From a virus: a DNA stretch of 42,970 bases. The position numbers and the translations under genes are program-made. The notes under the pieces are model-generated. The model was not told the DNA's origin and did not search any database. It saw only the letters and a program-made list of their open reading frames with translations. The stretch is from positions 1 to 42,970 of the IMG/VR virus record IMGVR_UViG_3300036861_000116. One strand, 5' to 3'. This document shows, piece after piece, positions 4,958-18,687 of the stretch; position 1 is the first letter of the stretch, and the number at the start of each line of letters is the position of its first letter.

Positions 4958-6532
4958 ATGACCGACAAAGCCGCCGCCAATCTCGTTCACCAGACGTCGA
5001 CGGGGACGGGAACGGGAAACCTCACGCTTGCCGTGGTCAACGGCAAGCAGAGCTTTAATACGGCGTTCGGCAACGGTGCGCCGACTGATGTATTCGTTTA
5101 CTTCATTTCGCATCAATCGGCGGCCGAATACGAGCGCGGCACCGGCCATATGTCGGACGCGACCACGCTGGTTCGTGATACGGTTATTGAAAGCACCAAT
5201 AGCAACAACGCAGTAAACTTCTCCGCCGGCACGAAGGATGTCACGAATGACATTCCCGCCGCCAGCCAAGTGCAGCTCGATCTTGCGCAGACGCTGACCA
5301 ACAAGACGATGGTGGGCGGCACCACCAACACCTTTTCCAAGCTGCCGGTAGTTTTCGAACCGGGCGGGCGGCTGTCGCTGGCGACTGCAACGCCGATCAT
5401 GACATCGACGCAATCGGCCAAGACGACCATATTCTACGTGCCTTACAAACACCGCTACGTGCCGCGCTACGATGGCACCAGCATCTACATGGTGGACATA
5501 GGCGGCGAACTTTCGCAGACCACGACTGACACGACCAAATCGCCTGCCGCTGTCATTGCCAACACTTGTTACGACATCTTTTCCTTTAATGACGGTTCGG
5601 AACGTATCGCGCGCGGGCCGAAGTGGTCAAAGACCTCGACTATTACGATGACTATTGCGTCGCCGTGCGTGGTCACTTGGAACGGCCACGGCCTGCCCGA
5701 TGGCTCGACATTTACTCCGACTACCACTGGGGCGCTGCCGACCGGTCTGACAGCGGGCAATGACTATTTCATTACTTCGACCGGCCCCAACACGTTCAAG
5801 CTCTCGACCACGCTGGCGAACTACGTCGCCGGCACCTTCGTCAACACCTCTGGGACACAATCTGGTACGCACACAGGCGAGAACCGGACGCAGGCGCGCG
5901 GCACGGGCGCAGGCACGACTGAACTCGTCCAGGTGCAGGGCGTCTGGATGAACGCCAACGACATCACAAATGGTCCCGCTGCGCAGCGCGGCACCTATCT
6001 CGGCACTGTCGTTTCTAATGGCTCATCACAGATCGATTGGATTTACGGCGCGCTGGCGGCGAACGGAACAGCCGCGGTCCTCGGCGTTTGGAATATGTAT
6101 AACAGGGTGAATGTTGCGACTTTCGTCAGCGACAGCACGGACAGTTATGCTTACAGCACCTCGAACACATATCGTGTCGCCAACGCATCAAGCACGATGC
6201 GGATTTCTGCGGTCATCGGACTTAATGAGGAGCCTGTCGATAGCGATTATGCCACGGCGGCCTCTGCAACGGCGGCAAGCATTGGTCTTTTCGCGGCTAT
6301 CGGTTTGGATAGCATCAAGGCATTCGCCGCCGGCTGTATCACGGGAACCGGAACGAGTGTCACTAGTGGCGATCCATTGAACATACGAGCCAAGTTTAGA
6401 GGCTTGCTCGGTCTTGGTCTGCACCATCTTTGGCCACTTGAGACACCATCGGGCGGAACTGTTAACTGGCTTCCCGACAACGGTTCTCCGACCATCAATG
6501 AAACCGGAATTTCCGCTACATTGAGGATGTAA
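4958..6532 (+). CDS. Probable tail fibre or appendage protein, 524 aa
   Basis: A long Thr/Ser/Asn/Gly-rich protein typical of trimeric beta-structured virion appendages. The N-terminal quarter includes a segment ending in a TLTNKTMVGGTTNTF motif, common where fibre stalks begin. The middle has many short beta repeats, and the C-terminal part has a Trp/Pro-rich cap (PLETPSGGTVNWLPDNG). It lies between two other structural genes with very short gaps. Which receptor it binds cannot be read from sequence. A role in adsorption is inferred from composition and context. Confidence 0.65.
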   Translation: MTDKAAANLVHQTSTGTGTGNLTLAVVNGKQSFNTAFGNGAPTDVFVYFISHQSAAEYERGTGHMSDATTLVRDTVIESTNSNNAVNFSAGTKDVTNDIPAASQVQLDLAQTLTNKTMVGGTTNTFSKLPVVFEPGGRLSLATATPIMTSTQSAKTTIFYVPYKHRYVPRYDGTSIYMVDIGGELSQTTTDTTKSPAAVIANTCYDIFSFNDGSERIARGPKWSKTSTITMTIASPCVVTWNGHGLPDGSTFTPTTTGALPTGLTAGNDYFITSTGPNTFKLSTTLANYVAGTFVNTSGTQSGTHTGENRTQARGTGAGTTELVQVQGVWMNANDITNGPAAQRGTYLGTVVSNGSSQIDWIYGALAANGTAAVLGVWNMYNRVNVATFVSDSTDSYAYSTSNTYRVANASSTMRISAVIGLNEEPVDSDYATAASATAASIGLFAAIGLDSIKAFAAGCITGTGTSVTSGDPLNIRAKFRGLLGLGLHHLWPLETPSGGTVNWLPDNGSPTINETGISATLRM

Positions 6533-7202: not shown

Positions 7203-8045
7203 ATGGCAAGGTTCCATCTTGCGCACGTTATCCCGCACCCGCGCCTGCACGGTCTCAATGGTTACCGGGAGGTCATCGAGTCCGTTCAGTGGGGTCTCGA
7301 ACAGCTAGGTCATCAAGTCACCTACGGCGTCAATCGCTTCTCGAACAAAACAACCAATATTATATTCGGCGCGCAAGTTCTGCCGGCGGACATTCAGCGT
7401 CAGTTGCCGGCGAACAGCATCATCTACAATTTTGAACAACTCCGCGGCGAGGAGCCTGAAGCACTAAGGCCGGAACTGCGCGACTACGCTGCGCGGTTTC
7501 AGATATGGGAATATAGCGAGTTTAATCTCGATGCATGGGCCAAGGTCGCTCCGAGGTTTCTGGTCAAGCATGTGCCGATTGGCTATGCGCCGGTCCTGAC
7601 CCGCATCGAAAAGCTGGCGATGCAGGACATCGACGTGCTGATCTATGGACTGCCGTCAGCGTCGCGGCTTGAAGTGTTCTCGGCATTGTCGGCGGCCGGA
7701 CTGACCAGCGTGTTTGTCTGCGGCTTGTACGGGTCGGCACGCGATGGTCTAATCGCAAGATCGAAGCTCGTCATCAACGCAACGCTGTGGGGCCGTTCCC
7801 GCATTTTCGAGATCGTACGCGTGTCCTACCTGCTCGCCAATCGCAAGGCAGTAGTGGCTAGGCATGATGCGAATACGATCGAGGCGGACATGCTGACCGC
7901 TGTGCATTTTTCTGACGCGGCAGCGCTAGTCAAAGATTGTGAAATCTTGATCGAGGATCAGGGGCTACGTGTAGCTTTAGAGGGGCGCGGCTTTGCGGCG
8001 TTCCGTCAGCGGGACATCAAGGCAATTTTGCAGAACGCGCTATAG
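7203..8045 (+). CDS. Putative glycosyltransferase (GT-B / CgeB-like)
   Basis: 280 aa from ATG 7203. The longer reading from 7077 would run through the end of the previous gene. The N-terminus (FHLAHVIPHPRLHGLNGYRE) looks like a GT-B N-domain with a glycine-containing loop. The C-terminal half carries LWGRSRIFEIVRVSYLLANRK followed by an AVVARHD strand, the arrangement around the conserved acidic residue of many GT1/GT4-like and spore-coat CgeB-like transferases. The nucleotide-sugar donor cannot be predicted. It sits among fibre genes, so a virion protein or host surface glycan is the likely acceptor. No DxD is needed in this fold and none is obvious. Confidence 0.6.
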   Translation: MARFHLAHVIPHPRLHGLNGYREVIESVQWGLEQLGHQVTYGVNRFSNKTTNIIFGAQVLPADIQRQLPANSIIYNFEQLRGEEPEALRPELRDYAARFQIWEYSEFNLDAWAKVAPRFLVKHVPIGYAPVLTRIEKLAMQDIDVLIYGLPSASRLEVFSALSAAGLTSVFVCGLYGSARDGLIARSKLVINATLWGRSRIFEIVRVSYLLANRKAVVARHDANTIEADMLTAVHFSDAAALVKDCEILIEDQGLRVALEGRGFAAFRQRDIKAILQNAL

Positions 8046-8926: not shown

Positions 8927-9222
8927 CGACCTACGTGATGCGAAACGGCCGGTTGATCGACAAGCGATTAGCAGGACCAATGCAGATTGCGAGTTCCGGC
9001 GGACCTAACATCATTTCCGACATCATGGCACCGCTCAAGCATCCCGGCACGGGCGCGGTGATCGACAGCAAGGCCAGGTTTCGCCAGCACACGCGGGCGG
9101 CCGGTTGCGTCGAGGTTGGCACCGATCCGGCCGCCATGCGTGAAAGGCCACGTCATACGGTAAGCGAAGTTGAGATCGTCAATGAAGTCCGTCAGGCGAT
9201 TGCCGAATTGCGATCACGCTAA
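8923..9222 (+). CDS. Conserved small phage protein, 99 aa
   Basis: Starts in an ATGA overlap with the previous gene and ends one base into the next. The pattern YVMRNGRLIDKR, then SGGPNIISDI, then a segment ending AAGCVEVGTD matches a small protein I recall before scaffold or coat genes of proteobacterial podoviruses. It is basic and soluble, probably structural or an assembly factor. No known catalytic motif is present. Confidence 0.65.
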   Translation: MTTYVMRNGRLIDKRLAGPMQIASSGGPNIISDIMAPLKHPGTGAVIDSKARFRQHTRAAGCVEVGTDPAAMRERPRHTVSEVEIVNEVRQAIAELRSR

Positions 9223-10187
9223 TGCCGACACTGCGGGAACGCTTGGCCGCCTCTCTATTGGATGAGGACTCGCTGCCGCCGAATATGGGCGGGCCTGCGC
9301 ATCCGGCGGTTACGGGCGGGATGAGTAATATCGCCAATGCGCTCTTGGCGCTGCCGCAGCAAACCTTGCAAGCTTCAGAAGGTTTGCGCCAAACGGGGCA
9401 ATATAGTCCGGCCCCGGCCATGGATTTGGCCATGGCGCTGGCTGGAGGGGGAACGTCGTTCGCGCAGAAAGGCGCGGCTGGGATATTCGGCGGTAGACTC
9501 GCCAAGACTGCCGATCAAAGCGCACTCTCGATGGCGGAACAGATGGCCGAGCGCGGCATGGACCGCAAGCAGATTTGGGACGCCACCGGATGGTTCAAGG
9601 GTGCGGATGGAAAATGGAAGTTTGAGATACCGGACGACACTGCAAAATTAACGCTTAAGGGCAATCCAAATAATCCAGATTTGCATGGTCAAGGACCACT
9701 CAATACGATCTTATCGCACCCTGATTTGTTCGATGCTTATCCAGGATTGGGCAAGATCGAATCGGAAATTGCCGATAGCTCTTTGCTCCGTCCGTGGGGA
9801 ATATATCGTTACAATCATCGGCCTATTATTGGCGGACAAAAAATAGAGGCGCGCGGCGGAGAAGGCGGGCCATTACAAACGAAACAAGTCGCATTGCACG
9901 AAGTGCAACATGGTGTGCAAATCGCCGAAGGATTTGCGGAAGGCTCACATCCGTCGCGATTGCGTGACGTGGCCATTAGAGCTGGAACACCGGCCGACAA
10001 GATTGATGAGGCTATATACGAAGCCTATCGCCGTCATGCCGGTGAAGTCGAAGCACGCAATGTTGAAAACCGCATGCAAATGACGCCTGACGAACGGCGC
10101 AAATTCCCGCCTTGGGTAACGCAAGATATTCCGGATGAACAACAGATCGTGCGTTTACCATCCTGGTATGAACGGTTCTTACGCTAA
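9222..10187 (+). CDS. HEVQH zincin-like metallopeptidase domain protein, 321 aa
   Basis: The C-terminal half holds HEVQH at residues 226-230, an HExxH zinc site, followed about 45 residues later by AGEVEARN (273-280). A glutamate there could be the third ligand, as in gluzincins. ERRKFPPWVTQDIP near the end matches a block I recall from polyvalent phage proteins with the same domain. The N-terminal 100 residues are Ala/Gly-rich, then MAERGMDRKQIWDATGWFKG forms a second conserved block. It lies directly before the scaffold, where a head-maturation protease often sits, though injected or anti-defence roles fit equally. Activity is inferred only from the motif. Confidence 0.6.
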   Translation: MPTLRERLAASLLDEDSLPPNMGGPAHPAVTGGMSNIANALLALPQQTLQASEGLRQTGQYSPAPAMDLAMALAGGGTSFAQKGAAGIFGGRLAKTADQSALSMAEQMAERGMDRKQIWDATGWFKGADGKWKFEIPDDTAKLTLKGNPNNPDLHGQGPLNTILSHPDLFDAYPGLGKIESEIADSSLLRPWGIYRYNHRPIIGGQKIEARGGEGGPLQTKQVALHEVQHGVQIAEGFAEGSHPSRLRDVAIRAGTPADKIDEAIYEAYRRHAGEVEARNVENRMQMTPDERRKFPPWVTQDIPDEQQIVRLPSWYERFLR

Positions 10188-11441: not shown

Positions 11442-12437
11442 ATGGGCGCAAATCCCAACTTCGATGACATTGTAACCACCACGCTCCGCAACAGAAGCGG
11501 CAAGCTGGCGGACAATGCCACGAAGACAACTGCCTTGCTCGATCGGCTGCGCCGACGCGGCAAGGTCAAACCGGCGGCCGGCGGCCGAACCATCGTGCAG
11601 GAGCTGGAAACGGCTCTCAACACGAACGGCGGCTGGTATGCCGGTTACGACACGTTGTCGACCAATGCGTTTGAGCCATTCAGTGCAGCCGAATACGACT
11701 GGAAGCAGGCTTACGTGCCTGTCGTTTGGTCGGGCCTCGAAAAGCTCAAGAATATGGGCGAGTTTGAGGTCATCGATCTGGTCGCAAGCCGAGTGAAGAA
11801 CAGCGAAAAGACGCTGTACGATCTCGTGGCGTCGGCCAGCTATTCGGACGGCACCGGCTCCGGCGGTAAGCAACTACATGGTCTGGGCCTGTTCATCGTC
11901 CAGGCCAACACGTCGGGAACCGTTGGCGGCATCGATCGCTCAACAAACACGTTCTGGCGCAATAAGACCGGCTCCGTGACCATGTCGGCCACGACCGTCA
12001 ACATCGCCTCAGTTAATCCGTCGACGTTTCTGGCGGCGCTGAACTCGCTGGCGATCTCCTGCACCCGCGGTTCCGACCGGCCGGACCTCTATGTCGCGGA
12101 CGGCACGGCGTACAAGCAGTATCTGGAAAGCTTGCAGCCGATCCAGCGGATCACCGATGTTGAGTTGGGAGGCTACGGCTTCACCAACTTGAAATACTAC
12201 GGCGTTGGCTCGAATGCCGATTTTGTCCTCGACAATGGTTATTGTCCGGCCAAGACGGTGTACGCGCTCAACACCGATTACATCTACTTGCGACCGCATC
12301 CGGATCGGAATTTCGTTCCATTCGGCGGCGACCGCATTCCCGTCAACCAGGATGCCACGGTCAGGTTCTTGGGGTTCACTGGCAATATGTGCGCCAGCAA
12401 CCTCGCCCTGCAGGGCATCCTCTCAAGCACCAACTAG
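11442..12437 (+). CDS. Major capsid (coat) protein
   Basis: 331 aa, starting at ATG 11442. The N-terminal region is a helical, basic arm (TTLRNRSGKLADNATKTTAL). Next come a SAAEYDWKQAYVPVVWSG block, a central Gly/Thr-rich loop region, and the SDRPDLYVADGTAYKQYLES segment characteristic of HK97-fold coat proteins of this phage group. The C-terminus carries FVPFGGDRIPVNQDA and ends in a hydrophobic strand. Length, order after the scaffold and the following decoration-like gene all fit. No N-terminal propeptide cleavage site is obvious. Confidence 0.85.
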   Translation: MGANPNFDDIVTTTLRNRSGKLADNATKTTALLDRLRRRGKVKPAAGGRTIVQELETALNTNGGWYAGYDTLSTNAFEPFSAAEYDWKQAYVPVVWSGLEKLKNMGEFEVIDLVASRVKNSEKTLYDLVASASYSDGTGSGGKQLHGLGLFIVQANTSGTVGGIDRSTNTFWRNKTGSVTMSATTVNIASVNPSTFLAALNSLAISCTRGSDRPDLYVADGTAYKQYLESLQPIQRITDVELGGYGFTNLKYYGVGSNADFVLDNGYCPAKTVYALNTDYIYLRPHPDRNFVPFGGDRIPVNQDATVRFLGFTGNMCASNLALQGILSSTN

Positions 12438-12449
12438 GAGGGCGCCACC

Positions 12450-12956
12450 ATGACATACCTTGTTGGTGGACAGCCGGGTGTTCAATTCACCGGCGACGAC
12501 CTGCTGAAAGGCAAGTGCCCCTCCGTTGGGCAGCGCCTCGAAACCAGCGACGGCAAGGAATATGTGTTTTGCCTTGTCGCCGCTGCGCAGAACCTGATCG
12601 ATGGTCATCTCGTGACCATTGATCCGATGACGTTTACCGTCACCATTGCGGCGGCTGGTCCGCCGGCTCCGGCGGCTGGAAATGTCCTAGGCGTGGCCCG
12701 AACCTCCGTCACCGCTTCGGCCAGTGCGTATATCTGGGTGCAGCGGTACGGCGTTGGCTCGGTGCAGGCGACCGCTTCGACGCTACCGAACATCGTGCTG
12801 ACGATGTCGGCTGCGGCGGGTGTCGTGGACGATGCCATTGCCACGGCCTCTGGCATAATCGAGGGTCTGATCCTGACCGCGACTACGGCGGCAAGCGGCA
12901 TCACTGCCTGCTTCCTGTCATATCCGCGGTTCACTGAACCCGGCATGCCGGGCTAA
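12450..12956 (+). CDS. Head decoration-like protein, 168 aa
   Basis: The gene has AGGAGG at 12437-12442, overlapping the coat stop, and starts at ATG 12450. The product is Ala/Thr/Val-rich and beta-structured, with an SVGQRLETSDGKEYVFCLV block and a VLGVARTSVTASASAYIWV block that I associate with small capsid-decoration or capsid-associated proteins directly after coat genes. It ends at a 14-bp palindrome (12939-12952). Coat stabilisation is the likely role, by position. Confidence 0.65.
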   Translation: MTYLVGGQPGVQFTGDDLLKGKCPSVGQRLETSDGKEYVFCLVAAAQNLIDGHLVTIDPMTFTVTIAAAGPPAPAAGNVLGVARTSVTASASAYIWVQRYGVGSVQATASTLPNIVLTMSAAAGVVDDAIATASGIIEGLILTATTAASGITACFLSYPRFTEPGMPG

Positions 12957-13313: not shown

Positions 13314-14045
13314 ATGTCGAATAAGCCGATCTATGTTTACATCGGTTTCGATCCGCGCGAAGCGGCTGCCTTTGCCGTTGCGCGCGAAAGCATCCGAAAC
13401 TTTGATCGGCATTTGCGCGTCGAAGGCGTTGTGCTTTCGCGGTTGCGAGCGGCCGGCCTCTACATAAGGCCGACTGAAGTTCGCCTGGGTAAATTATGGG
13501 ATGTGATTTCGGATGCGCATATGTCCACCGAGTTCGCGATTTCTCGGTTTTTCGTTCCTGAACTGATGCGCCGCCGCGACCATCATGGCTGGGCCTTGTT
13601 CATGGATTGCGACGTGCTGGTGCGGGCAAACATCAATCAGCTCCGTCCCTATCTGGACGATAGCAAGGCCGTCTGTTGCGTGAAGCACGAATATATTCCG
13701 ACCAATGACATAAAGATGGACGGGCAAATTCAGTCCGCCTATCCGCGCAAGAATTGGTCATCGGTGATGGCGATCAACGTCGATCATCCGGCCAACGATG
13801 CATTGAATCTCAGGATGGTCAATTCTTTGCCGGGGCGCGACCTGCATGCCTTCTGGTGGATCACCGACGATAAAATAGGCGAGTTGCCGCCGGAATGGAA
13901 CTACATCCCAGGACATACCAAACTCCCCGAGGACACTTATCCGAGACTTGTGCATTACACGGATGGCGGGCCGTGGTTGCCGCAATTCCGCAATGTGGAA
14001 TACGCGGAAGAATGGTTGACGGAGTTCGAGCAATGGGCGGCTTGA
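13314..14045 (+). CDS. Putative GT8-like glycosyltransferase, 243 aa
   Basis: Predicted sugar transferase with a GT-A fold. IYVYIGFDPREAAAF at residues 6-20 is the usual nucleotide-sugar strand and loop. LFMDCDVLV at 95-103 holds a DxD metal site (D98, D100). HYTDGGPW at 214-221 is close to the metal-binding His motif near the end of GT8 enzymes. The start ATG lies directly after the previous stop (13311-13313). The 3' end overlaps the Maf-fusion gene by 13 bases, so the two are translationally coupled and probably act together. Donor and acceptor are unknown. Confidence 0.72.
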   Translation: MSNKPIYVYIGFDPREAAAFAVARESIRNFDRHLRVEGVVLSRLRAAGLYIRPTEVRLGKLWDVISDAHMSTEFAISRFFVPELMRRRDHHGWALFMDCDVLVRANINQLRPYLDDSKAVCCVKHEYIPTNDIKMDGQIQSAYPRKNWSSVMAINVDHPANDALNLRMVNSLPGRDLHAFWWITDDKIGELPPEWNYIPGHTKLPEDTYPRLVHYTDGGPWLPQFRNVEYAEEWLTEFEQWAA

Positions 14046-15778
14046 TCTCGCCGGAATATCTTGAGCTGCAACGGCAACTGCACGCGAAAGGCAATTACGG
14101 CACGTCCAGCGGACGATGGATTTACACAATCTCTAGCCTGGCGGCCAAGTATGAGTGTCGCGATATTCTCGATTATGGGTGCGGTGAGGGCAATCTCAAA
14201 AAGTCGTTGGGCGAAAAGGTCCGCGAATATGATCCATGCCAGTCAGGCAAGGATGCCGACCCAGAGCCGGCAGACCTTGTCGTCTGCACCGATGTATTGG
14301 AGCATATCGAGCCGGATTACCTCGATCGCGTGTTGACACATCTTTCCTCCAAAGTCAGGAAGGCGTTTTTCTTCACCATCGCGCTTTATCCGGCAAGAAA
14401 GAAACTTGCGGATGGACGCAACGCGCATTTGATCGTCGAATCCGCCGATTGGTGGCGGGAACGATTGAGCCGGTATTTCAAGCTGGCGGAATGGGATGTG
14501 CGCAAGGTGCGTCCCGGCTGGGAGGGAACCGAAGTTACAGCTTTGGCGCTGGCCGATGGCGTGGTGACCAAAACGGGCATTCGCCCGCACAAACGCCGCA
14601 AACTGTCGCGGAAATTTCGCAAGCAGGCGGAGGCCTTCTTTGAAACCATCCGCGAAGGTTCGCGCCGCTACAGCGACAAGATATGTAAAATCGAGACCTT
14701 CGAATTCTGGGAGGGTGATGGCGACCGCGAAGCCGATTGCCAAGTCGTGATCGACATCCTCGAACATCAGTGGGACGTGCATGCGGCGCTGGCCGACATC
14801 AAGCGGATGGCCAAGCATGCGGTCTTTCTTGTAATCCGGCTCGATTTCCGCGGCGCGGATTACTGGAAGGATGTAATCGGCAATTACTTCGCCGTGACGC
14901 AAGTGCATGAGCAGGACGGCGCGATCTCGCTCATCGCCAATGCCAAGACGCTAGTGCCAGGGCTCAAGATCAAGGCGGCCGGGACCGAGGAATCAAGGTG
15001 GGAAAACATCATCACCAGCGTCAATAAATACAGGGATTGCCTGGAAGAAGAACCGCCGCACGACCGCTATGCGATCATTGCCTGCTACGGGCCATCGATG
15101 AAGGACACATGGCCGATCTTGATGCAGCAGGCGGCCGATAAGAATTCAGTAGTTGTGTCGGTGTCCGGCGCGCATGACTTTCTACTGGGGAAAGGCATTA
15201 TTCCGGATTTTCATATCGAATGCGATCCGCGCGAGCACAAAGCCGACAACATGGCGCAGGCGCATCCTGATGTTGAGTATCTGATGGCGTCGACCTGTCA
15301 TCCGCGCATGTTTGCCAAGGTCGACGGCATGAAGGTCAGGCTGTGGCACTCTGTTGGCGGCGAAGTTGCCGTACGCATCGTTGATGAACTACAATCGAAG
15401 GCGCCGATCATCTTCGGCGGCGGCTCGGTTGGCTTGCGCGCGTTGCCGGTGATGTTTCGCAAAGGCTATCGAAAATTCCTCATTCATGGGATGGATTGTT
15501 CGTTTGCCGATGAAGGCCGCGAAAAATGGGCCGGCCCGCATGCGCAAAAGCAAAACCCGAAGGAACAACAAGTCGTCAAGGTAAGATATGACGGCCGCTT
15601 CTTCGCAACGACCGGCATTCTTCTCAGCTATGGAACCGACTTTTTCGACATGGTCAATCGCATGCGGCAGGCCGATCCATCGCTGGAAATCCGCGTGTTC
15701 GGTGACGGGCTGTTGCAGGCCCGTGTCGCCGGGCCGCATTCACCAATCGAAGTTTTACCCCAACAGGAGGCTGCATAA
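14033..15778 (+). CDS. Methyltransferase - methyltransferase-like - Maf (DUF115) fusion, 581 aa
   Basis: Three parts are readable. Residues 1-180 are a class I SAM methyltransferase with motif I ILDYGCGEGNL (45-55) and ADLVVCTDVLEHIEP (80-94). Residues 190-305 look like a second, decayed methyltransferase half: ADCQVVIDILEH (234-245) mirrors the first, but no glycine motif is visible. Residues 345-565 match the Maf/DUF115 (MptE-like) fold, with IACYGPSM (349-356), IPDFHIECDPREH (390-402), FGGGSVGLRALPV (461-473) and LIHGMDCSF (483-491). Maf proteins add nonulosonic acids to flagellins. ATG 14033 is used, coupled to the preceding gene. A longer start at 13895 would lie inside it. The acceptor is unknown. 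Confidence 0.75.
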   Translation: MGGLISPEYLELQRQLHAKGNYGTSSGRWIYTISSLAAKYECRDILDYGCGEGNLKKSLGEKVREYDPCQSGKDADPEPADLVVCTDVLEHIEPDYLDRVLTHLSSKVRKAFFFTIALYPARKKLADGRNAHLIVESADWWRERLSRYFKLAEWDVRKVRPGWEGTEVTALALADGVVTKTGIRPHKRRKLSRKFRKQAEAFFETIREGSRRYSDKICKIETFEFWEGDGDREADCQVVIDILEHQWDVHAALADIKRMAKHAVFLVIRLDFRGADYWKDVIGNYFAVTQVHEQDGAISLIANAKTLVPGLKIKAAGTEESRWENIITSVNKYRDCLEEEPPHDRYAIIACYGPSMKDTWPILMQQAADKNSVVVSVSGAHDFLLGKGIIPDFHIECDPREHKADNMAQAHPDVEYLMASTCHPRMFAKVDGMKVRLWHSVGGEVAVRIVDELQSKAPIIFGGGSVGLRALPVMFRKGYRKFLIHGMDCSFADEGREKWAGPHAQKQNPKEQQVVKVRYDGRFFATTGILLSYGTDFFDMVNRMRQADPSLEIRVFGDGLLQARVAGPHSPIEVLPQQEAA

Positions 15779-15779
15779 A

Positions 15780-16409
15780 ATGGACAAGGAAGTCGTAGGC
15801 GACCCGATCCCTCTCATCATGGAGCGCGAAGCGGGGGCGCCGGAACATATCGCGGCCATGCTGGTCGGCTTCGGTATCATGCAGATGACTGATGCGAAGG
15901 CCAGCGCCAAGGCCGGATATCCGGTGTTCAAGGATGTCGAATTCTTCCGCGCCAAGGTTCCCGGCGACAAGCAGTCGGAAGTACTGGCAATTGCCAAAGA
16001 CAAGGACCGGGCGCGCTACCCGCGCGCCTACGCGGCATTCAAGCAACGCGGCAGCGTGCCTATTCAGGGTCTGCCCATCGAGCAATGGCCGCAGATCAGC
16101 CGCGGCCAGGCAGTGATGCTCAAGAGCATGGACATTCATACCGTCGAATGCCTGGCCGAAGTGCATGATGGCCATATCGACAAGCTTGGCCAGAGCGGGC
16201 GCGAACTACGCACCAAGGCCAAGGCGTTCTTGGCGCAGGCCAAGGACAGCGCCGAAGCGCAACGGCTGGCGGCCGAAAGCGAGCGCAAGGACGCGATTAT
16301 CGCCGAGATGCAGCGGCAACTCAAAGACTTGGCCGCGCGCATCGAACAGCCGACGAAACGTGGCCCCGGCCGGCCGCGCAAGGATGACCAATCCGAGGCG
16401 GCGGCGTAA
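15780..16409 (+). CDS. Hypothetical protein with coiled coil and AT-hook-like tail, 209 aa
   Basis: A strong AGGAGG at 15767-15772 precedes ATG 15780. The N-terminal 120 residues are globular with no motif I recognise (HIAAMLVGFGIMQMTD). The next 70 form a charged coiled coil (AESERKDAIIAEMQRQLKDL). The C-terminus TKRGPGRPRKDD contains an AT-hook core, GRP flanked by basic residues. Placed before the connector gene, it could be a DNA-contacting virion or assembly protein. That is inference. Confidence 0.65.
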   Translation: MDKEVVGDPIPLIMEREAGAPEHIAAMLVGFGIMQMTDAKASAKAGYPVFKDVEFFRAKVPGDKQSEVLAIAKDKDRARYPRAYAAFKQRGSVPIQGLPIEQWPQISRGQAVMLKSMDIHTVECLAEVHDGHIDKLGQSGRELRTKAKAFLAQAKDSAEAQRLAAESERKDAIIAEMQRQLKDLAARIEQPTKRGPGRPRKDDQSEAAA

Positions 16410-17113
16410 TGAATACCCTGCTGGCGATGGTCCAAGGCATTGCCGGTTCGCTCAGCTTGCCGGTGCCGTCATCGCTTGTCGGCAATGCTGACGCGGCATC
16501 GGTGCTTTGGCTTAACTTGGCCAAGCGGGAAGGCCGCGAGCTCGCGCGCCGACACGATTGGCAGGCATTGATCGTGCAAAAGACGTTCACATCCACGGCG
16601 ACCGTGGTGCAATCGTCGGCGCTCGGAACCGATTATGATCATATGGTTCCCGATGTCGAAATCTGGGACCAAACCAACCATCAAGTTCTAGTCGGGCCGA
16701 CTTCTTCGGTCAATTGGGTGCGGCTGCAAAGTAGCGCCGTAACTGGGTCTATTGCCGGATGGTGGCGCATTCTCGGCGGGGCACTCAATGTCTATCCTGC
16801 GCCGACCGCGGGACATACCTTCGCGCTGGACTATATATCAAAGAACTGGTGTCAATCGTCCGGCGGCACGGCGCAAAGCACTTGGGCGGCGGATACCGAT
16901 ACGCCGTTAATCCCCGATCATCTGATTGAACTCGGCATCACCTGGCGCTGGCTGCGGGTGAAGTCGATGCACTACGCCGAAGAAATGGCGACCTACGAGC
17001 GCGAATTGGAAAAAGCCGCCAGCCGCGACCGCGGCATGCGCGTTCTTTATGTGAGCAAATCGCGCGATGACGATTATCCGCCGCAGCCGGGCTGGACCGG
17101 GACGGTCGGCTGA
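16409..17113 (+). CDS. Head-tail connector, P22 gp4-like tail accessory factor
   Basis: 234 aa, starting at a one-base overlap with the previous stop. The helical N-terminal half (VLWLNLAKREGRELARRHDW) followed by a beta segment (VPDVEIWDQTNHQVLVGP) and a helical return (ELGITWRWLRVKSMHYAEE) is the layout of the gp4 / tubular-A-like adaptors below the portal. It is followed immediately by the large hub protein, the usual gene order. It would close the head after packaging. Confidence 0.72.
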   Translation: MNTLLAMVQGIAGSLSLPVPSSLVGNADAASVLWLNLAKREGRELARRHDWQALIVQKTFTSTATVVQSSALGTDYDHMVPDVEIWDQTNHQVLVGPTSSVNWVRLQSSAVTGSIAGWWRILGGALNVYPAPTAGHTFALDYISKNWCQSSGGTAQSTWAADTDTPLIPDHLIELGITWRWLRVKSMHYAEEMATYERELEKAASRDRGMRVLYVSKSRDDDYPPQPGWTGTVG

Positions 17114-18687
17114 TGCGAACTGCCCTGCAGGATGCCTCGCTGCGTGGCAACGGCCGAATTCCGCAATCGGCGTTCCAGGTCGAGATATTACCGCCGCCAG
17201 TCGGTGGCTGGAACAAACGCGATGCACTGCCCTTGATGGACGACAAGGACGCGATCCGGCTTGACAACTGGATACCGGATACGAATTCGGTGCATTTGCG
17301 TGGCGGGTTTGCCACGCATGCAATCATCGAAGCAACCGCGACGGCGATTGAGTCGCTCATTCAATACGTGCCGCCGAACACGACGAACGCCAAGATGTTC
17401 GCTGCCATTCCGACCGCCATCTATGATGTCACCGCAGCGGCGACGGCCTCAGCCACGGCCGCGGTCGTTACTGGATTAACCAACGGCCGTTGGCAGCACA
17501 GCCAAATGACCAATACGGCTGGCTCTTTCCTAGTGATTTGCAACGGCGCCGATGCGCCGCGCACCTATAACGGCACCACTTGGGCGACCTGCAGCGTAAC
17601 AACGACCGGGCTATCGATCAGCAACCTGATCGGCGTGCATAATCACATGAACCGGCTCTGGTTCATCGAGGAAAACCAGAATTACGTCTGGTACCTGGGC
17701 ACGAGCGCCATTGCCGGCGCCATGACGCAATTCCTGCTGCCGTTCCGCAAGGGCGGCAAGCTGATGGCGATGGGTACCTGGTCGCGCGACGGCGGGGCGG
17801 GACCGGATGATTTCGCGGTTTTTGTTTCCAATCGCGGGGAAATCTGCGTCTATTCCGGCACCGATCCATCAGCCGCAACGACATGGGCGCTCTTAGGTTA
17901 TTATAACATCCCTGAGGTTATCGGCCGGCGCTGCATCCATCATGCCGGGGCCGATCTTGGGGTGCTCACATCGCAGGGTCTTGTGTCGCTGGCGCGCATT
18001 CTGTCGCTGCCGGAAGGAGCGGCGGGACGCGCTAGTTTCACTGACAAGATTTCCGGGCAATTCCGGGAACAGTACCGATCGACGGGAACCTTATTCGGAT
18101 GGGAATCGATCGAATATCCGAAGAAAAACCTTCTCATCGTCAATGTGCCGATCGCCGAGCGCACGACGCAGCATCAATATGTAATGAATATCAACACCGG
18201 GGCTTGGTGCCGGTTCACCGGCATCAACGGCGGCTGCTGGTCGCTCCTGGGAGATAATATCTATTTTGGCGGCAATGACGCCGTGGTGCGAAAATTCGAC
18301 AGCACCACCATGGACGGCACCAGCAATATAACGGCCGTGCTGCAATCAGCCTATAGCACATTCCGTACCGCGGTAACGAAACACTTCACCATGGCGCGGC
18401 CGATCTTTCTGGCGCCGACGCAATACGTGCCTCCGGTCACGATCCAGACCAACTATGATACCAGTGAGCCATCGATCAGCACTGTCGTTGCCTCTACCAG
18501 CGGCACGCAATGGGACGCCGCACAATGGGATAGCTTTCAATGGGCGGGCGGCGACATTCCGACGCTCAATTGGCAAACGATTGCCGGCGAAGGACGTGCC
18601 GGGTCGATTGCGTTTGGCGTTTCATCGTCGGAAACGCTGACCTACAACGGCTGCGATGTCGGCTTTGAGCGCGGCGGCTATCTATAA
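17113..18687 (+). CDS. Tail hub / packaged-DNA stabilisation protein, P22 gp10-like
   Basis: 524 aa, with its ATG overlapping the connector stop. Beta-rich throughout, with repeated blade-like segments (GRWQHSQMTNTAGSFLVICN; GVHNHMNRLWFIEENQNYVW) that suggest a propeller. An early LPLMDDKDAIRLDNWIPD block is frequent at the N-terminus of this family in short-tailed phages. It is Trp-rich at the C-terminus (WDAAQWDSFQWAGG). The probable role is the ring below the adaptor that holds fibres or needle. Homology is judged from layout, not a search. Confidence 0.75.
   Translation: MRTALQDASLRGNGRIPQSAFQVEILPPPVGGWNKRDALPLMDDKDAIRLDNWIPDTNSVHLRGGFATHAIIEATATAIESLIQYVPPNTTNAKMFAAIPTAIYDVTAAATASATAAVVTGLTNGRWQHSQMTNTAGSFLVICNGADAPRTYNGTTWATCSVTTTGLSISNLIGVHNHMNRLWFIEENQNYVWYLGTSAIAGAMTQFLLPFRKGGKLMAMGTWSRDGGAGPDDFAVFVSNRGEICVYSGTDPSAATTWALLGYYNIPEVIGRRCIHHAGADLGVLTSQGLVSLARILSLPEGAAGRASFTDKISGQFREQYRSTGTLFGWESIEYPKKNLLIVNVPIAERTTQHQYVMNINTGAWCRFTGINGGCWSLLGDNIYFGGNDAVVRKFDSTTMDGTSNITAVLQSAYSTFRTAVTKHFTMARPIFLAPTQYVPPVTIQTNYDTSEPSISTVVASTSGTQWDAAQWDSFQWAGGDIPTLNWQTIAGEGRAGSIAFGVSSSETLTYNGCDVGFERGGYL

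Follow-up and report, generated by a model that had tools for sequence, protein, structure and literature searches.

Glycosylated virions, Maf enzymes and phage proteins of the PF01973 family, the last annotated as MptE-like, are all already known. Protein O-glycosyltransferases include Maf and FlmG, the latter of which works in the cytoplasm (PMC11339370, PMC7591256). Among phages, a comparable arrangement is that of the cluster O mycobacteriophage Corndog, in which an O-methyltransferase and glycosyltransferases (gp35 to gp38) are encoded between the portal and the protease (PMC4351075). According to Freeman 2023, as cited in PMC12363180, the virions of Corndog and Che8 are glycosylated. Short, stand-alone phage proteins of PHROG 4603, labelled "alpha-2,3-sialyltransferase" (PAJU2, CcrColossus), and of the c4 family have motifs related to those described below, match PF01973 weakly and match our Maf-domain profile; they are distant kin of the fused domain analyzed here. 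Finally, BFVD holds predicted proteins of uncultured Caudovirales (540 to 714 aa), annotated by Pfam name as "6-hydroxymethylpterin diphosphokinase MptE-like," which share the fold over about 250 to 260 residues and some of which include a methyltransferase domain; no description of their operon position or role was found. The literature searched for phage Maf/DUF115/MptE proteins likewise contained no description of the fusion, the fixed head-operon slot or the modularity reported below.

A glycosyltransferase and a methyltransferase-Maf fusion among head genes

The window, that is, the entire 42,970-nucleotide stretch of IMG/VR virus DNA that was analyzed, carries a gene for a GT8-fold glycosyltransferase followed by a gene for a methyltransferase-Maf fusion, both between the genes for the major capsid protein (MCP) and a tail connector (Table 1). 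The first-pass annotation had described this placement and the overlap of the two genes correctly: both open reading frames are present and overlap by 13 nt. A longer fusion protein starting at 13895 (627 aa) is possible; the start at 14033 is preferred because the homologues start there and a GGAG lies 8 nt upstream. The MCP is 50% identical to that of Bradyrhizobium phage ppBjS10J-1. The product of the gene after the MCP is similar to its counterpart in locus L159 (phmmer, 4e-6), which in turn matches the virion structural family PHROG 29386 (2e-5), as does Mx8 p49 (5.5e-82). Dozens of IMG/VR contigs share the order MCP, head protein, glycosyltransferase, methyltransferase/Maf, conserved gene and adaptor, with the cassette genes on the same strand as the flanking virion genes. 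Compared with Corndog, both phages insert methyl- and glycosyltransferases among head genes, whereas for Corndog, a phage of another host group, no Maf domain or fusion is reported.

Table 1. Cassette genes, fusion domains and neighboring genes of the window
Feature	Coordinates	Strand	Details
Major capsid protein (MCP)	11442-12437	+	PHROG 9953, 3e-91
Probable head/decoration protein, candidate acceptor	12450-12956	+	distant homologues
GT8-fold glycosyltransferase gene	13314-14045	+	243 aa, DxD = D98-C-D100, H214
Methyltransferase/truncated methyltransferase/Maf fusion gene	14033-15778	+	581 aa, ATG 14033
Fusion residues 1-175, class-I SAM methyltransferase (predicted activity)	14033-14557	+	PF13489, PHROG 24759, motif I
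Fusion residues 196-306, truncated methyltransferase-like domain	14618-14950	+	hhalign to first domain
Fusion residues 310-581, Maf/MptE (PF01973) domain	14960-15775	+	Pfam, 5MU5 structure and profile matches
Conserved slot-border gene, PHROG 20268	15780-16409	+	
SU10-type adaptor/tail connector	16409-17113	+	PF24175 4e-10, PHROG 6013 8e-54

Three other genes of the window were recorded. The gene that follows the adaptor (17113-18687) bears the PHROG 5107 label amidase (lysis). This label looks wrong, because the family is found behind the adaptor again and again among the relatives, and its positional counterpart in MW202512 is annotated as a phage stabilization protein. Between the portal and capsid genes, a 280-aa open reading frame (7203-8045, plus strand; NATLWGRSRIFEIVRVSYLLANRKAVVA) appears GT-B-like by eye; it had no match in Pfam, PHROG, PDB or phage records and no homologue among the fetched loci, and its product may be an additional glycan enzyme. 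The protein encoded at 9222-10187 (plus strand), which contains a large-polyvalent-protein domain of the LPD23 type (PF18838, E 2.6e-23), was found in one other fetched locus only (L130).

The glycosyltransferase belongs to PHROG 28018 (2e-55; function unknown). Because its match to Pfam Glyco_transf_8 (E 5.8e-4, 20 bits) falls under the cut-off of 24.3, it is labelled here as GT8-fold and not as a member of the GT8 family. Its AF2 model (pLDDT 93.9) matched LgtC (1g9r; Z 16.4, 210 aa, 3.8 Å), GlyE (Z 16.0), glycogenins (Z about 15) and the capsid glycosyltransferase of PBCV-1 (2p73; Z 13.2). The motifs DCD (residues 98 to 100) and HYTDGGPW (residues 214 to 221) are present as proposed in the first-pass annotation, and 31 relatives show no variation at D98, D100, H214, T216, G218 and P220. 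The protein thus has a GT-A fold with a DxD motif and a conserved C-terminal His. It shares the fold, the DxD and the near-C-terminal His with LgtC, GlyE, glycogenin and the PBCV-1 enzyme but is only ~15% identical to GT8 enzymes and shorter.

The N-terminal domain of the fusion matches Pfam Methyltransf_23 (PF13489, E 1.1e-8) and PHROG 24759 (1e-22), carries motif I (LDYGCGEG) and a conserved DGRNAHLI block, and matches methyltransferase structures at Z 12 to 14.5; its motif columns are invariant, or almost so, in 20 relatives. By motif I and modeled fold, it is an intact class-I domain with predicted activity, in line with the SAM methyltransferase that the first reading had named. The second domain had been called a decayed methyltransferase half. 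It can be aligned with the first domain solely over the latter's C-terminal half (hhalign 98.3%, 79 columns; hhalign E-values against a single template are uncalibrated), and motif I, the SAM-binding glycine motif of class-I enzymes, is absent from it in 15 of 15 aligned relatives. Searched alone against the PDB, it gave matches at chance level only. Its pairwise dN/dS is 0.02 to 0.24. Hence it is methyltransferase-like, and "decayed" fits its catalytic motif but not its fate. A resemblance of the whole fusion model to the tandem plant and nematode PMT methyltransferases (Foldseek/VIA) was dropped, at an rmsd of >13 Å.

The third domain matches PF01973 over residues 342 to 493 (E 5.3e-20, 72.3 bits against a cut-off of 34.6) and contains the motifs CYGPS, VSGAHDFL, HIECDPREHKA, GGGSVGLRA, GMDCSF and GDGLLQ. 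The fusion model (pLDDT 82.8) has a pTM of 0.63, so its domain packing is uncertain. It matched Magnetospirillum Maf (5MU5) at Z 22.9 over 232 residues (3.0 Å), with residues 289 to 581 aligned to Maf 239 to 510, and archaeal MptE (8sd5) at Z 15.5, well under Maf. A whole-length profile found no match among PDB sequences, whereas one restricted to the Maf domain, built from 34 such domains of these loci, matched 5MU5 at 5.9e-10 and 8sd5 at 1.5e-5. Structure and profile searches therefore agree with the Maf/DUF115 fold first proposed for the C terminus, and a fold unlike Maf, which the first reading had named as grounds for rejection, was not what they showed. Relative to the Maf (MAF_flag10) flagellin O-glycosyltransferases, the central catalytic fold and the motifs are alike. 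The three-domain Maf layout, with a Rossmann-like N-terminal and a C-terminal helical domain, is not retained: in the phage protein, encoded in a head operon, a methyltransferase stands in place of the long Maf N terminus, and the chain ends at Maf residue ~510 of about 632, without the C-terminal helical domain.

A modular cassette in an accessory slot

Most cassette loci are useless for estimating frequency because they were found through the cassette. Frequency was therefore taken from 85 non-redundant loci (9 + 63 + 13) picked by the capsid protein alone, through three single capsid queries, an 18-sequence capsid alignment being too divergent for the scan; the third sample is not wholly independent, as its query phage bears the cassette. 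A Maf domain was present in 11 of the 85 capsid-adaptor intervals, 9 of which also contained the glycosyltransferase, and no cassette domain was detected in the remaining 74. Empty intervals mostly span 1.0 to 1.9 kb and filled ones 2.4 to 6.6 kb, which marks the cassette as an accessory element inserted at one fixed position; the prevalence of short, empty intervals also argues that it is dispensable for building the particle.

The cassettes are modular: the type of methyltransferase varies, the truncated copy or the glycosyltransferase can be swapped or absent, and Maf recurs. For example, the methyltransferase is joined to Maf without the truncated domain in five loci (L008, L009, L020, L037 and L044), and Maf stands alone beside the glycosyltransferase in L048 and L049. 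The truncated domain and Maf accompany an unrelated PF13578 methyltransferase, which is fused in L013 and encoded by a separate gene in L088. An additional C-terminal FkbM-like methyltransferase was read from the sequence of L036, and L159, from a freshwater clade, has in the same place a fusion of Maf with a GT-B-like domain, a methyltransferase and a second Maf. The cassette does not track the capsid. The capsid of L010 is 44% identical to that of the window, its glycosyltransferase 65% and its methyltransferase 63%; conversely, L088 has a capsid that is 84% identical and a Maf domain that is 44% identical. Every part of the cassette is under purifying selection (pairwise dN/dS 0.02 to 0.27, truncated domain included).

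No gene tied exclusively to the cassette was identified as an acceptor, and co-occurrence of the head protein gene at 12450-12956 with the cassette was discarded as evidence, being confounded by relatedness. Two further observations concern the slot. In L097, whose capsid is 78% identical to that of the window, the slot (5137-5781) holds another protein of 215 aa (IAIVARGGT..., EIWGLPW) that has no Pfam, PHROG or NCBIfam match and is perhaps an unrelated replacement enzyme. L088 has, on the same contig as its slot copy, a second, stand-alone Maf-type gene (1000-1851) that precedes the capsid gene by ~8 kb.

Relatives in other phages and in bacterial genomes

Scanning viral contigs for the pattern of the 581-aa protein alone gave no match, and an alignment query was used instead. 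The ECDPRPHK-type signature proved to be nearly confined to viruses, with 147 confirmed viral stretches against 2 genome loci. These two loci, the only ones with relatives among 84,980 species genomes, are from Rhodomicrobium sp. R_RK_3 (L108) and a Sulfuricaulis MAG (L109); the former is a prophage region with the full fusion, and its layout matches IMG/VR record 2832641632 (L128). Plasmid records contained no relative, and in 50,697 phage records, relatives of the Maf domain were limited to weak matches in PAJU2 and IME307 (E 0.2 to 0.3).

The combination of enzyme types is more widespread. The glycosyltransferase family has a short PF01973-like/PHROG 4603 "sialyltransferase" as its neighbor in 14 of the 64 non-redundant loci, CcrColossus (gp126) among them. 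Relatives of the methyltransferase adjoin the glycosyltransferase in Caulobacter jumbo phages, a Manatee Spring podovirus and Stenotrophomonas phage DLP_6, and in Roseobacter phage CRP-9 one lies next to the coat gene. Glycosyltransferase or methyltransferase relatives lie among head or tail genes in the unrelated phages CRP-9, the Manatee Spring podovirus and CcrColossus (beside a tail gene), and the head-tail genes of PAJU2 include a related sialyltransferase-like protein and a methyltransferase. Given such varied phages, a GT8-fold enzyme with a Maf/sialyltransferase-like protein and a methyltransferase is a combination that phages use repeatedly, not an accidental neighborhood.

The same glycosyltransferase family also occurs inside runs of sugar genes (L056, L062, L071, L068 and similar). 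These runs, which are glycan loci far larger than that of the window, also encode FkbM methyltransferases and a protein that combines a cytidylyltransferase-like part with mannose-6-phosphate isomerase. Another locus, L007 (HQ632857, Tetraselmis viridis virus S20), has a green alga as the recorded host; its genome encodes a phage terminase, portal and prohead protease and, close to the head genes, enzymes of the glycosyltransferase and methyltransferase types, and its host is probably a bacterium.

Possible acceptors, donors and functions

The best reading, to which we assign a probability of roughly 0.55, is that a cassette in the late capsid operon adds a methylated sugar to a protein of the virion. 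This reading is favored by the head-operon position in several phage types, the dispensability of the cassette, the presence of enzymes of the protein-O-glycosylation type and the precedent of Corndog. Glycosyltransferase and methyltransferase genes lie here inside a head/tail operon, as expected of a virion-glycosylation cassette. As to acceptor, donors, order of steps and any benefit to the phage, we infer the following. While heads assemble in the cytoplasm, the GT8-type enzyme and the Maf-type domain would attach a single sugar or a small number of them to Ser/Thr residues of some abundant protein of the virion, with the capsid protein and the head protein (12450-12956) as candidates. The N-terminal methyltransferase would O-methylate the added sugar, and the truncated domain may serve, non-enzymatically, as a spacer for Maf or a docking module. 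The likely donors would be a UDP-hexose for the GT8-type enzyme and, for Maf, a CMP-sugar made by the host; CMP-Kdo should be on hand in almost any Gram-negative host.

The first-pass annotation had noted that Maf proteins add nonulosonic acids to flagellin. A nonulosonic acid as the donor here is not supported by the sole host genome with the cassette, that of the Rhodomicrobium lysogen. NeuB was detected neither in the window nor, as PF03102, in this genome, whose assembly may be incomplete, and KdsB (CMP-Kdo synthetase) was found there at 361.8 bits (cut-off 281). These findings disfavor a nonulosonic-acid donor in the Rhodomicrobium host, which may not match the host of the window phage, and make CMP-Kdo a candidate; Clostridium Maf takes CMP-Kdo when its native donor is absent (PMC11339370). 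The phage genes scanned included no sugar-nucleotide enzyme. Flagella, also named as a possible target, are not supported: the protein lacks the Maf C-terminal helical domain, and phage head genes surround the cassette. A more specific proposal, which we regard as unlikely, is that a virus-specific Maf branch, fused to exchangeable methyltransferases, forms a transferable capsid-glycosylation module that, with CMP-Kdo or another non-nonulosonic donor, displays methylated sugars of the host LPS pathway on phage heads.

The main rival, that the enzymes alter LPS, capsule or flagellin sugars of the host during infection or lysogeny, so that released phages escape loss to debris or competing phages are shut out, is serious but seems rather unlikely. 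Bacterial GT8 enzymes are often LPS enzymes, pelagimyophage GT8 genes have been interpreted as LPS modifiers (PMC7029224), L108 is a temperate member, and the glycosyltransferase family is found elsewhere in the longer sugar-gene runs (CTP_transf_like plus mannose-6-phosphate isomerase protein, FkbM methyltransferases). However, in this capsid clade the cassette is part of the head operon. The Rhodomicrobium prophage is no exception, and at such a position a conversion gene should presumably be silent; the known Maf enzymes, too, modify protein. The earlier proposal of virion modification late in infection is partly supported, by the head-operon position and the Corndog precedent (PMC4351075); late expression of head genes does not discriminate, as genes that alter the host surface can be late too. 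Host-surface change and superinfection exclusion, suggested along with it, are possible.

It is quite improbable that the C-terminal domain is an MptE-like pyrophosphokinase or a binding module, the fusion then being a methyltransferase with an accessory domain: PF01973 includes MptE, 8sd5 is matched by structure and sequence, and the BFVD relatives carry the MptE-like annotation, but Maf is the better match on both counts and the neighbors are sugar enzymes. Phage glycosyltransferases and methyltransferases can also act on modified bases, and DNA base hypermodification, in which phage DNA receives sugars and methyl groups, is nevertheless highly improbable for a cassette in which a base-modifying partner was not noticed, which lies among late head genes and whose Maf relatives modify protein.

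If modification of a virion protein is confirmed, O-glycosylation of virion proteins would not be peculiar to mycobacteriophages, and the Maf-type family would represent a recurring route to virion glycosylation in phages of soil and freshwater bacteria. The compact fusion enzyme would then be amenable to study and would offer a test of whether Maf enzymes use Kdo naturally. Furthermore, the named slot would allow phages with and without the cassette to be compared for stability, adsorption and competition.
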